This document shows, in pieces, positions 12,300 to 17,377 of a stretch of DNA of 18,664 nt. A program made the translations under genes and the position numbers. The number at the start of each line of letters is the position of its first letter. The first letter of the stretch is position 1. Origin of the DNA: a bacterium (GTDB lineage Bacteria; UBP15; UBA6099; DSWB01); contig JAGUYV010000314.1 in assembly GCA_020061125.1 (NCBI GenBank), forward strand, positions 1-18,664. The letters run 5' to 3'. The notes under the pieces were generated by a model that did no database searches, had not been told where the DNA came from, and saw nothing but the letters and a program-made list of their open reading frames with translations.

Positions 12300-13175
12300 A
12301 TGTCAATCATGAACATCAACACCAACGTGAATTCTCTGATCGCCCAGGGGTCTTTGAGAAAGCTCGACTCCGGTTTAGGCACCACCATGAAGCGCCTGTC
12401 CAGCGGCCTGCGCATCAACAGCGCCGCGGACGATCCTTCAGGCGTGGCGCTGGCCAACAGCATGACCGCTCACATGCGCGGCGTGCACCAGGCCATCAAC
12501 AACGCCCAGGACGGCCTCAACCTCCTGGCGTTCGCGGACTCGGCTCTCAACGAGACCCTGGACATCCTTCAGAGGATGAACGATCTGGCGGTCAAGGCGT
12601 CGAACGAGGCTGTTCTCACCACGGCGGACATCCAGTCCATCCAGAACGAGATTGACAGCCTCCGCACCGAGCTGTCCCGCCGCGCGGGCGCGGTGACCTT
12701 CAACACCAAGATCCTGTTCTCCGGCGGATTCTCCGACGGGCAGATGCTCCAGATCGGCGCCAACAACGGCGCAGCATTCCAGATCACGGTTCAACTGGAG
12801 GCCGTGACCCTTTCCGGAATGGGCTTCTGGAGCGTCCCGGACACGATCTCTCTGGTGGTCACCTCGGGCGCTGCGAACTCGTCGCTCGGCGCAGCCGTCA
12901 CGGCCATAGACGCCGTGAAGAGCGCCATCAACATCGTCTCGAACATGCAGGCGGCCATCGGTGTGCAGGAGAAGAAACTCCAGTACATCATCAACGACTT
13001 GAGCAGCGAGGAAATCAACATCGCCGCCGCCAAGAGCCGCATCACCGACGCCGACATGGCTGCGGAGATCTCGGAGTTCACGCGCCTCCAGGTGCTGACC
13101 CAGTCCGCGACCGCCATGCTCGCGCAGGCCAACCTGCAGCCGCAGATCGTCACTCAACTGTTGGGCGTTGGCTAG
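12300..13175 (+). CDS. Flagellin (filament subunit)
   Basis: This 291-residue flagellin forms the filament after type III export. The N-terminal D0/D1 region has MNINTNVNSLIAQGSLRKL, then MKRLSSGLRINSAADDPSGVALAN (about residues 30-53) and NNAQDGLNLLAFADSALNETLDILQRMNDLAVKASN. The C-terminal D1/D0 has the conserved ITDADMAAEISEFTRLQVLTQSATAMLAQAN followed by LQPQIVTQLLGVG. The central part (about residues 145-200) is short, so the large outer domains D2/D3 are missing. AAGGAGG lies 9 bases before the ATG. It is preceded by the csrA gene and a leader with CsrA-type motifs, and closed by a strong terminator. Gene names hag or fliC would both be used; I leave the symbol open. Glycosylation is plausible from the nearby sugar genes. 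Confidence 0.96.
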   Translation: MSIMNINTNVNSLIAQGSLRKLDSGLGTTMKRLSSGLRINSAADDPSGVALANSMTAHMRGVHQAINNAQDGLNLLAFADSALNETLDILQRMNDLAVKASNEAVLTTADIQSIQNEIDSLRTELSRRAGAVTFNTKILFSGGFSDGQMLQIGANNGAAFQITVQLEAVTLSGMGFWSVPDTISLVVTSGAANSSLGAAVTAIDAVKSAINIVSNMQAAIGVQEKKLQYIINDLSSEEINIAAAKSRITDADMAAEISEFTRLQVLTQSATAMLAQANLQPQIVTQLLGVG

Positions 13176-13227
13176 GGTGTTTCCTTACCTACAGATTTAA
13201 ACCAGTCACTCACATTAAAACACCTAT

Positions 13228-13262
13228 TGCCTCCCGGCTGCGGCCGGGGGGCAGTTTTTTTT
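13228..13262 (+). terminator. Strong intrinsic terminator after flagellin
   Basis: An 11-base-pair GC-rich stem (13228-13238 with 13243-13253, one G-T pair, loop TGCG) is followed by eight T residues (13255-13262). It ends the flagellin transcript about 50 bases after the stop codon. Confidence 0.92.
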
Positions 13263-13325
13263 GTCCGGATCCCGCGGCGGCGGCTGCTGCTCTATAAATT
13301 GATCTGCAGATCTTTAAAATATGGC

Positions 13326-13354
13326 TTGACCCTAGAATGCGCGTTCATTATATT
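13326..13354 (+). promoter_or_regulatory. Sigma-70-like promoter P1 in the fadN upstream region
   Basis: TTGACC (13326-13331) and TATATT (13349-13354) are separated by exactly 17 bases, and each hexamer matches consensus at 5/6 positions. Predicted start is near 13361, about 70-75 bases ahead of an intrinsic terminator stem, so a short transcript of about 97 nt is expected. Confidence 0.55.
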
Positions 13355-13362
13355 AATGTCTG

Positions 13363-13380
13363 TTGTGACACACTTCACAA
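13363..13380. promoter_or_regulatory. Perfect CRP/FNR-superfamily-like operator
   Basis: TTGTGA (13363-13368), six bases, then TCACAA (13375-13380) form a perfect palindrome with the TGTGA-N6-TCACA layout of CRP-family sites. It lies at about +3 to +20 of promoter P1, a position where binding would block P1. It is about 120 bases upstream of the P2 start. The regulator is not in the window. Confidence 0.55.
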
Positions 13381-13433
13381 AGGCAAAATTCCGTGAGCAA
13401 ACCGGGTCCGGAACCTACAGGACACCCAATCAG

Positions 13434-13456
13434 AGCGGGCTGCGCCTGCTTTTTTT
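13434..13456 (+). terminator. Short intrinsic terminator between P1 and P2
   Basis: AGCGGGC (13434-13440), loop TGC, GCCTGCT (13444-13450) form a 7-base-pair stem with one G-T pair. It runs into seven T residues (13450-13456), then G and more T. Confidence 0.7.
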
Positions 13457-13459
13457 GTT

Positions 13460-13488
13460 TTATCACGAATGTGTTCAACATGTATAAT
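13460..13488 (+). promoter_or_regulatory. Sigma-70-like promoter P2 for fadN-fadA
   Basis: TTATCA (13460-13465) and a perfect TATAAT (13483-13488) are separated by 17 bases. The predicted start is near 13495, at the edge of the palindrome GCGGCGCGCCGC. The leader to fadN would be about 100 bases with a 6-base-pair hairpin (CCGGGC 13550-13555, GCCCGG 13561-13566) before the ribosome site. Confidence 0.55.
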
Positions 13489-13595
13489 GCATCTGCGGCG
13501 CGCCGCTGCGGCGGCCTGTGATGCTGTGAATAATCTTCTTTTCCCTTATCCGGGCATCCGGCCCGGAAATACCATCAGTGCATAGGAGGAATCGT

Positions 13596-16085
13596 ATGAG
13601 CAAAGACATCAGGAAGGTGGCGGTTCTGGGATCCGGCGTCATGGGTTGCGCCATCGCTTGCCATCTGGCCAACTGCGGCATCCCCGCCCTGATGCTTGAC
13701 ATCGTTCTGCCCCTGTCGGACGATGACAAAGCCAAGGGCGTCAAGGAAACCGACCCGGCTCACCGCAACAAGCTCTCCGCGGGCGCGCTGGCAAAGGCTC
13801 TGGCCGCAAAGCAGCCCATGTCCCCCCTGTACGTGAACAAAAATGCGCAGCTCATTGAAGTCGGAAACTTCACCGACGACATGCACCGCATCGCCGAGTG
13901 CGACTGGGTTGTGGAAGTTGTTCTCGAACGCATGGACATCAAGAAAAAGGTGTTCGCCCAGGTGGCCGAGTACTGGAAGCCCGGCATGATCGTCACTTCC
14001 AACACATCCGGTCTGCCCATCAAGGAAATGGCTTCCGAAATGCCCGCGGAGATGAAGAAGCACTTCTTCGTCACGCACTTCTTCAACCCAGTTCGCCACA
14101 TGAAACTTCTGGAATTCGTGCTCGGCGAAGACACGGATCCCCAGATCGCCTCGGCCCTGGCCGAATTCGGCGAAAAGGTTCTGGGCAAGGGCATCGTCAT
14201 CGGCAAGGACACCCCCAACTTCGTGGCCAACCGCATCGGCGTGTACGGCATCATGGCCGTGCTCAAGCACATGCAGGACATGGACATGCGCTTCGATGAG
14301 ATTGACGCCATCGCCGGCCCGCCCATGGGCCGCCCCAAGAGCGCCGTGTTCCGCACTGCCGACCTCGTGGGCCTCGACACCTTCAGCCATGTGTCCACCA
14401 CAGTGTACGACCTGTGCCCGGACGACGAGCAGCGCGATGTGTTCAAGGTTCCCGACTTCATGAAGAAGATGGTCGAGAACGGCTGGCTGGGCAACAAGTC
14501 CGGCCAGGGTTTCTACAAGAAGGACAAGGTTGACGGCAAGAAGGCGTTCTTCATTCTCGACTACAAAACCATGGAATACATCCCGAGCGCGAAAGCCGAT
14601 TTCGCCTCGGTCAAGAAAGCCAAGAAAGTGGACGGCGTGGGCGAGCGCATCAAGACCCTGGTGAACGGCGACGACAAGGCCGCCGAATTCGCCTGGAAAG
14701 CCGTGCGCGACAGCGTGATCTACTCCTGCAACCGCATCCCCGAGATCGCCGACGATGTGGTCAACATTGACAACGGCATGAAGTGGGGCTTTGCCTGGGA
14801 CATGGGTCCGTTCGAGACAGCGGACGCCATCGGAACCAAGGACATGGTCAAGCGCATCAAGGCCGACGGCCTCGAAGTGCCCAAGATTCTCGACGAAGCC
14901 GCCAAAAAGGGCGGGTTCTACAAGAAAATCGGCCCGGTTCTCAACTACCTCGACGCCGAGACCTTCACCTACAAGCCCGTTCCGCAGACGGCCCTGCAGT
15001 TGAACACCAACCAGTTGTCCGAGCGGGTTCAGGGCGCGGTCAAGTATCTCACCGACCCGGCCAGCAAGAAAATCTCCATCGCCGCCCTGTACGAGGCCGG
15101 CAAGTGCTTCGCCCGCAACGCAGGCGCCAGCTTGCTGGACATGGGCGACGGCGTGTGCCTTCTCGAGTTCCACACCTACAAGGGCATGAACCCCGTGGAT
15201 GCGGACATCATCATGATGATGATGCAGTGCGTGGAAGAAGTGCAGAAGCGCGGCTTCGTGGGCGTGGTCGTGGGCAACCAGGGCCAGAACTTCTCCGTGG
15301 GCGCCAACCTTCTGATGCTGCTCATGGAAGCCCGCCAGAAGAACTGGGACAATGTGGAAAAAGCTTCCAAGGGCCTGCAGGATGCGGCCATGCTGCTGAA
15401 ATACGCGCCGTTCCCGGTTGTGACCGCTCCGTTCGGCATGGTGCTGGGCGGCGGCTACGAAGTGGCGTCCCAGGGCGACATGATCTGCGCCGCGGCCGAG
15501 ACCTATCCGGGTCTGGTCGAAGTGGGCGTGGGCGTGCTCCCCGCAGGCGGCGGCTGCAAGGAAATGCTGCTGCGCCACACCGAGCAGGCCAACGGCAACA
15601 AGAACGAACCCTCGACCTTCAACTTCGTGCGCAACGCGTTCGAGAGCATCGCCATGGCCAAGGTCGCCATGAATGCGCAGCAGGCCATCGAGTGGGGCAT
15701 GTTCCGGCCCACCGACCATGTGAGCATCAACAAGGACTATCTGCTGGACGACGCCAAGCAGCTCGTGCTGGGCATGGCCCGCGCCGGGTACAATCCCAAG
15801 TCCCCCAAGAAAGACATCCGCATGCCCGGCCGCCAGTACTACGCCGCGTTCCTCAACGCCATCTGGACCATGCAGCAGGGCAACTACATCAGCGAGCACG
15901 ACGCGCTGATCGCCAAGAAAGTGGCCAAGGTCCTCACCGGCGGCGACATCGCCACCAACGCCATCATGACCGAGCAGGACATCCTCGACATGGAGCGCGA
16001 AGCGTTCGTCAGCCTCTGCGGCACCGAGAAAACACAGGATCGCATGCAGTACATGCTGCAGAACAACAAGCCGCTCCGCAACTGA
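13596..16085 (+). CDS. fadN: FadN-type bifunctional 3-hydroxyacyl-CoA dehydrogenase / enoyl-CoA hydratase
   Basis: This 829-residue enzyme should catalyse the middle two steps of fatty-acid beta-oxidation: hydration of enoyl-CoA and NAD-dependent oxidation of the 3-hydroxyacyl-CoA. The dehydrogenase is N-terminal: a Rossmann dinucleotide motif VLGSGVMG (GxGxxG at residues 12-17), the catalytic histidine in THFFNP (H161), and a C-terminal dehydrogenase region around 195-410. A crotonase domain follows: oxyanion segment NFSVGANL (565-572) and both catalytic glutamates (E622 in GGGYEVA, E642 in GLVEVGVGVLP), spaced 20 residues as in crotonase. This order is that of Bacillus FadN, the reverse of E. 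coli FadB. ATG 13596 has AGGAGGA 5 bases upstream. It is followed by the thiolase gene after 44 bases. Confidence 0.92.
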   Translation: MSKDIRKVAVLGSGVMGCAIACHLANCGIPALMLDIVLPLSDDDKAKGVKETDPAHRNKLSAGALAKALAAKQPMSPLYVNKNAQLIEVGNFTDDMHRIAECDWVVEVVLERMDIKKKVFAQVAEYWKPGMIVTSNTSGLPIKEMASEMPAEMKKHFFVTHFFNPVRHMKLLEFVLGEDTDPQIASALAEFGEKVLGKGIVIGKDTPNFVANRIGVYGIMAVLKHMQDMDMRFDEIDAIAGPPMGRPKSAVFRTADLVGLDTFSHVSTTVYDLCPDDEQRDVFKVPDFMKKMVENGWLGNKSGQGFYKKDKVDGKKAFFILDYKTMEYIPSAKADFASVKKAKKVDGVGERIKTLVNGDDKAAEFAWKAVRDSVIYSCNRIPEIADDVVNIDNGMKWGFAWDMGPFETADAIGTKDMVKRIKADGLEVPKILDEAAKKGGFYKKIGPVLNYLDAETFTYKPVPQTALQLNTNQLSERVQGAVKYLTDPASKKISIAALYEAGKCFARNAGASLLDMGDGVCLLEFHTYKGMNPVDADIIMMMMQCVEEVQKRGFVGVVVGNQGQNFSVGANLLMLLMEARQKNWDNVEKASKGLQDAAMLLKYAPFPVVTAPFGMVLGGGYEVASQGDMICAAAETYPGLVEVGVGVLPAGGGCKEMLLRHTEQANGNKNEPSTFNFVRNAFESIAMAKVAMNAQQAIEWGMFRPTDHVSINKDYLLDDAKQLVLGMARAGYNPKSPKKDIRMPGRQYYAAFLNAIWTMQQGNYISEHDALIAKKVAKVLTGGDIATNAIMTEQDILDMEREAFVSLCGTEKTQDRMQYMLQNNKPLRN

Positions 16086-16129: not shown

Positions 16130-17302
16130 ATGAGTAGAGAAGCAGTCATCGTTTCCACGGTTCGGACGGCTGTCGGTCGCGCGAAAAAAGGCACCCTCAA
16201 GGACACCCGCGCCGACGATCTGGCCGGAATCGTGTTCAATGAAGCCATCAAGCGCGCGGGCATCAAGGCCGAGCAGGTGGAAGATGTCATCATGGGCTGC
16301 GCCATGCCCGAAGCCAGCCTGGGCATGAATGTGGCCCGCATCGCCGTCATGGCCGCGGGACTCCCCGACGATGTCCCCGGCGTGACCGTCAACAGGTTCT
16401 GTTCCTCGGGTCTCGAAGCCATCGGCATCGCAGCCGCCAAGATCATGGCCGGCTGGAACGACATCATCATCGCCGGCGGCCTCGAATCCATGACCATGGT
16501 TCCCATGGGAGGATTCACCCCCGAACTCAACCCCAAACTGGCCGAGGAATATCCCGAAGCCTATTGCCCCATGGGCATCACTGCGGAAAATGTAGCCACC
16601 CGCTACAACATCACCCGCGAAATGCAGGACGAGTTCGCTTACAACTCGCACATGAAAGCAGCGCAGGCTCTCAAAGACGGCGTGTTCAAGGACCAGATCG
16701 CCCCGGTCAAGACCCGCGTGTGGAAGGAAGGCAAGGGCTGGCAGGAGGTCACCTTCGAAGTGGACGAATGCCCGCGCCCCGAAACCACCATGGAAGGGCT
16801 CGCCAAGCTGAAACCCGTGTTCCGGCTGGGCGGCAGCGTGACCGCCGGCAACTCCAGCCCCATGAACGACGGCGCCGCCTGCTCCGTGCTCATGAGCAAG
16901 GAAAAAGCCAAGGAACTGGGCCTCAAGCCCATGGCCACTTTCCGCTTCCTGTCGTCCGTGGGCTGCAAGCCGGACGAAATGGGCGTCGGCCCCCTGTACG
17001 CGATCCGCGATCTCATGAAGCGCACCGGCCTGAATGTCAACGACATCAAGACCTACGAGATCAACGAAGCCTTCGCGTCCCAGGCCCGCTACTGCTGCGA
17101 AGAGCTTGGTCTGGACATGTCCACCGTGAACAAAAACGGCGGCGCCATCGCCTTGGGCCACCCCCTGGGCTGCACCGGCGGCAAGCTCACCACCCAGTGC
17201 GTGTATGAAGCCATCGCCAGCAAGAGCCAGTACGGCGTGGTTTCCATGTGCATCGGCGGCGGCATGGGCGCGGCTGGCCTGTTCGAAATCGAGAAATACT
17301 GA
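16130..17302 (+). CDS. fadA: Acetyl-CoA acyltransferase (3-ketoacyl-CoA thiolase) FadA
   Basis: This 390-residue thiolase would carry out the last beta-oxidation step, cleaving 3-ketoacyl-CoA to acetyl-CoA and a shortened acyl-CoA. The nucleophilic cysteine is C91 in [12 protein letters not shown]. The catalytic histidine is H344 in [14 protein letters not shown], and the acid/base cysteine is C374 in [14 protein letters not shown]. The NEAFASQ motif (about 313-319) is also intact. Length is standard for the family. CGGAGG lies 7 bases before the ATG. The close linkage to fadN, with shared promoter and a strong terminator behind, indicates a beta-oxidation operon; a biosynthetic acetoacetyl-CoA thiolase is the alternative but is less likely here. 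No acyl-CoA dehydrogenase or ligase gene is in the window. Confidence 0.94.
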
Positions 17303-17337: not shown

Positions 17338-17377
17338 CGGGAGTCCCCGCAATCCGGGGGCTCCCGGTTTCTTTTCT
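17338..17377 (+). terminator. Strong intrinsic terminator after fadA
   Basis: A 12-base-pair stem (17338-17349 with 17355-17366, one T-G pair, 5-base loop) is followed by GTTTCTTTTCT. It ends the fadN-fadA unit about 35 bases after the stop codon and isolates the next unit. Confidence 0.9.

Follow-up and report, generated by a model that had tools for sequence, protein, structure and literature searches.

The DNA ahead of a fadN-type beta-oxidation gene in an uncultured bacterium of the UBP15 phylum holds two promoters, a palindrome and a terminator-like hairpin, which raises the question of which regulator reads the palindrome and whether the first promoter serves fadN or a separate short RNA. 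The window (the whole stretch of DNA analysed, 18,664 nt) was compared within the phylum across seven genomes, namely the genome that hosts the window (G000) and six relatives (G001 to G006). The features that concern the question are:

13326..13354, + strand: P1, a sigma70-type promoter TTGACC-N17-TATATT (10/12), with a predicted start near 13361
13363..13380, no strand assigned: predicted Rex operator TTGTGACACACTTCACAA, 18 bp, 8 nt past the -10 box, at about +3 to +20
13432..13463, + strand: intrinsic-terminator-like hairpin (stem 13432-13452) with a T-rich tail
13460..13488, + strand: P2, a second sigma70-type promoter TTATCA-N17-TATAAT (10/12), outside the operator
13596..16085, + strand: fadN-type gene for a 3-hydroxyacyl-CoA dehydrogenase / enoyl-CoA hydratase (Pfam 3HCDH_N, 3HCDH and ECH_1)
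16130..17302, + strand: second gene of the operon, a fadI/fadA-type acetyl-CoA acyltransferase (thiolase; NCBIfam TIGR01930 above cut-off)

The start codon of fadN is the ATG at 13596, with AGGAGGAA just upstream. Other hairpins flank the region: a strong terminator (about -25 kcal/mol) lies behind the flagellin gene at 13226-13255 of the window, and a hairpin with a T-rich tail, seen by eye at 17338-17376 behind the thiolase gene, probably marks the end of the fadN-fadI operon.

The initial annotation had described P1, a palindrome, a terminator and P2 at these positions, and all four are located there in the sequence. The palindrome had been called perfect, which holds for the 12 fixed bases of TTGTGA-N6-TCACAA and does not extend to the six inner bases of TTGTGACACACTTCACAA, which are asymmetric. 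Exact copies of TTGTGA-N6-TCACAA number three in the 4.12-Mb genome, against none for the reversed-pattern control, and a Rex score of 13/14 is attained in 0 of 3000 Markov-1 simulations of the intergenic region. The terminator stem has 9 pairs (5 of them G-C, about -12 kcal/mol) and is followed by a run of T. A comparable terminator arises in about 1-3% of simulations and the P2 score of 10/12 in about 1%, and the P2 score is thus modestly beyond chance, as is the terminator; the palindrome lies far outside chance expectation.

The palindrome is likely to be the operator of the NADH/NAD+-sensing repressor Rex at the fadN-fadI promoter. The site agrees at 13/14 positions with the Rex operator consensus, the 18-bp TTGTGAANNNNTTCACAA, described by Ravcheev et al. 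2012 (cited in PMC5317091 and PMC6391272) and in PMC5355995. Across 17 sites from the phylum, a set partly picked by its match to TTGTGA-N6-TCACAA, position 7 of the half-site is A in 23/34 cases and the CRP base T in 3/34. At position 5 the same set has G or T, in line with the variant TTGTTAA, a Rex half-site known from Clostridia (PMC9600882). In each of the genomes, sites carrying no more than one mismatch outnumber reversed controls by a factor of about 2.7 to 8. The operator lies directly behind the -10 box, at 8 nt in the window and at 8-9 nt across the window and its relatives, a position that suits a repressor. The pattern TTGTGA-N6-TCACAA has also been assigned to HcpR, a CRP-family regulator, in Desulfovibrio (PMC545781). 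It is common to CRP, HcpR and Rex, which are told apart by the position of the site and by the co-regulated genes; attribution to CRP is a natural misreading, corrected here.

Conservation in close relatives, which had been proposed as a check, is found for the palindrome before fadN in five genomes, G002 to G006. Orthologues of fadN share 69-74% amino acid identity in six genomes of the same order and 72-74% in the five with the same layout. The leaders of these five hold a sigma70 promoter TTGACA-N18-TAAAAT/TACAAT (11/12), then 9 nt, then TTGTGACTATTTTCACAA or ATGTGATATATTTCACAA, with the operator at about 193-204 nt 5' of the fadN start codon. Counting the window's own, a strong promoter directly ahead of a Rex-type palindrome is present at fadN in six genomes; no such site was found upstream of the fadN orthologue in G001, a point against the Rex assignment. 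The gene 5' of fadN in the relatives differs from the window's upstream gene, which, with fadN itself conserved at 72-74%, argues for assigning the promoter and operator to fadN rather than to the flagellar genes next to it. A P2-like TTTACA-N17-TATGAT (10/12) lies downstream of the operator in four genomes of the related genus g3 at another spacing, a score attained in about 1-2% of simulations. At distant FadN genes (Syntrophomonadaceae, Planococcus, Myxococcales) no site above control level was found except one of 11/14 in a Myxococcales MAG, and the fadN arrangement therefore seems specific to the UBP15 phylum.

The other sites in the phylum show which genes would be co-regulated. The second perfect site of the window's genome follows TTGACA-N18-TAGATT upstream of a nuo (complex I) operon. 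Rex-type sites also precede hppA (membrane pyrophosphatase) in six genomes, two of which repeat the arrangement of TATATT, 8 nt and site, and they precede two [FeFe]-hydrogenase operons with NuoE/NuoF-like subunits, an Nfn fusion, an acyl-CoA dehydrogenase and a thiolase. The weaker members of this set, two of the hppA sites and the nuo site of G001, reach only 11/14. In Streptomyces avermitilis, Rex binds the promoters of nuoA1 (site TTGTGACCTGCTTCACAT), hppA and echA7 (PMC5355995). Against the Rex assignment, some sites precede genes that lack a clear redox role: perfect 14/14 Rex-type sites lie near a PilZ-like gene and a TPR/rhomboid locus, neither with an evident redox role (G003:C9:57340, in L183:3341; G002:C203:24344; G005:C599:2331, in L178:2331).

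Several details of these loci were recorded alongside. Three genomes keep, just 5' of a radical-SAM/B12-type gene classed by eye, a site in which one half reads TTGTTAA (L169:1527 in G005, L182:1518 in G003 and L188:1501 in G002). The apparent NfnA-NfnB fusion is a protein of 768 aa (L218:434-2737, G005:C88) with its Rex-type site 81 nt upstream. In the [FeFe]-hydrogenase operon (L213, L214), small proteins and HATPase-like and PHP-like proteins, assigned by eye, are encoded between the NuoE/NuoF-like and HydA-like subunits; one small protein has no Pfam or NCBIfam match and is presumably of the DRTGG type. At L215:1808 (G000:C130), two tandem elements ending TTACATATTTCACAA stand before a gene of unknown function.

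Each of the seven genomes encodes one canonical Rex; the copy of G000 (G000:C393) scores over cut-off with PF06971 and the NCBIfam Rex models and matches PDB 5zz5 (E 4e-54), and the aligned Rex proteins of three other genomes are 68-74% identical to it. CRP-like proteins with a helix-turn-helix (HTH) over cut-off are encoded in three of the seven (G000, G002 and G003), and no CRP-type HTH over cut-off was found in G001, G004, G005 or G006, the last three of which are incomplete MAGs (67-88% complete).

That a CRP-like protein binds the palindrome instead, either repressing P1 from over its start or acting on P2 from about -123, is improbable. The case for it lies in the 12/12 match of the window site to TTGTGA-N6-TCACAA, the motif shared with HcpR of Desulfovibrio (PMC545781), and in the CRP-like proteins of the three genomes named above; that of the window's genome carries the CRP-type recognition helix TTRETLTR and could bind TGTGA half-sites, and the form ATGTGATATATTTCACAA, found in the genus of G002, G003, G004 and G006, scores 11/12 for CRP, both of which weigh against the Rex assignment. 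The window site itself departs from the CRP pattern with inner bases TGTGAT....ATCACA, which it matches at 10/12. Its centre at about +10 is not an activating position, its inner bases are Rex-like in a set where T at position 7 is rare, and the co-targets are typical of Rex. G004 to G006 keep the fadN site while a CRP-type HTH over cut-off was not found in these 67-88% complete assemblies. Upstream of hcp in G000 to G003 the best match to the HcpR motif is 8-9 of 12, and hcp genes that lack the motif argue against HcpR, weakening it as the binder. Site sequence, position, co-regulated genes, regulator distribution and the lack of the motif before hcp together favour Rex over CRP/FNR, and the CRP/FNR-family regulator originally proposed is probably wrong. 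The fadN palindrome is most likely a known kind of switch, met here in a bacterial phylum that is uncultured and little studied.

With Rex as the preferred regulator, the hairpin between P1 and fadN still calls for an account. One reading makes P1 the promoter of a Rex- or CRP-regulated small RNA of about 97 nt that ends at the terminator, with fadN driven solely by P2. Promoter, operator, terminator and a separate P2 do stand in the correct order for this, and simulations yield each of the last two at a rate of only about 1-3%. The body of the transcript, however, was found neither in the six phylum relatives nor elsewhere in the genome: a search of 13381-13595 against the phylum genomes gave no meaningful match (three of 18-23 bases, E 0.04-0.06), and 13381-13500 is single-copy in the window's genome. 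Nor does 13170-13620 match Rfam, apart from one chance-level snoRNA far below cut-off, and 13361-13457 folds only slightly better than its shuffles (z -1.4). No comparable terminator was found in the fadN leaders of the operator-bearing relatives, whose P1 can only feed fadN. A dedicated small RNA, as the initial annotation had suggested, is thus very improbable, its body and terminator being missing from relatives' leaders and from elsewhere in the phylum, with no Rfam match. A trans-acting role was rejected for a sequence that, across the seven genomes, is neither conserved nor repeated beyond one and matches no Rfam family. Because P1 of the relatives can only serve fadN, the simplest history is that P1 and its operator are the old promoter of fadN and that the terminator was gained later in this lineage.

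The hairpin could alternatively be the working part of an attenuated leader, in which RNA from P1 takes up one of two folds, terminator or antiterminator, or in which a leader ORF is read, giving fadN a second control that is compatible with Rex. The terminator does sit within the leader, 13399-13407 pairs at 8 of 9 positions with its 3' arm, and a GTG-start ORF of about 42 codons (13394-13522, found by eye) crosses the hairpin as a possible, weak leader peptide. An 8/9 pairing is nevertheless expected by chance about once in seven by our own estimate, the minimum-energy fold of the whole leader retains the terminator stem, and none of the relatives compared keeps the leader. Regulated switching of this kind is unlikely and would, if real, be specific to the window's genome. 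The terminator is probably a recent, leaky attenuator specific to this genome, and P2 may be a basal promoter.

Under the Rex assignment, the region would work as follows. At low NADH, Rex would be bound at +3 to +20 and would block RNA polymerase at P1. As NADH rises, Rex-NADH would release the site and P1 would fire, as would the genes for hydrogenase, Nfn, complex I, pyrophosphatase, acyl-CoA dehydrogenase and thiolase where the genome in question encodes them. The weak terminator between P1 and fadN, a feature of this genome alone, would cut short a share of the RNAs begun at P1, and P2, lying outside the operator, would supply basal fadN mRNA. The best explanation, as proposed here, is that Rex couples FadN-FadI to the redox state. 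The link of fatty-acid use to the energy state that the initial annotation had drawn is kept in this narrower form, with real regulatory elements and a conserved palindrome behind it; the regulator family it had named is not.

Rex usually controls NADH-consuming steps and normally frees genes when NADH piles up. Beta-oxidation makes NADH, so an enzyme with a purely catabolic role would not be expected to be derepressed by it, a point that counts against the Rex assignment, the logic of which fits best with the enzymes running in reverse or alongside hydrogenase. FadN-FadI may run reductively, as Rex-controlled reverse beta-oxidation does in chain-elongating Clostridia (PMC9600882), or may be co-induced with an NADH-draining hydrogenase. 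The compound proposal, that Rex controls a reductive FadN-FadI in the phylum (reverse beta-oxidation as an NADH outlet) and that in this species the acquired terminator lets the Rex promoter yield a redox-controlled short RNA as well, is a long shot.

Taken together, these sites predict a redox regulon in a phylum represented here by metagenome assemblies alone; fatty-acid oxidation falls within it, beside hydrogenase, Nfn, complex I and pyrophosphatase. With Rex freeing genes as NADH piles up, FadN may be reversed for electron disposal, or fatty acids may be oxidised only together with hydrogen release.

Among known systems, the HcpR regulon of Desulfovibrio (PMC545781) shares the palindrome TTGTGANNNNNNTCACAA and differs in that HcpR is a CRP/FNR regulator, whereas the hcp promoters of the present phylum lack the motif. 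Chain-elongating Clostridia, in which reverse beta-oxidation is under Rex control, likewise have predicted Rex sites before the reverse beta-oxidation genes and hydA, but with the motif TTGTTAANNNNTTAACAA and separate enzymes, whereas here the enzyme is a fused FadN type that may work in either direction (PMC9600882). Rex of S. avermitilis shares nuo, hppA and an enoyl-CoA hydratase gene, echA7, as bound promoters (PMC5355995). The known Rex regulon more broadly shares the 18-bp operator TTGTGAANNNNTTCACAA, with sites in or behind the promoter (PMC5317091, PMC6391272, PMC5355995), and, in Caldithrix, hydrogenase as a target. The present case differs from it in that fadN-fadI is a predicted target conserved within a candidate phylum, and in that the operator sits at about +3, directly behind the -10 box.
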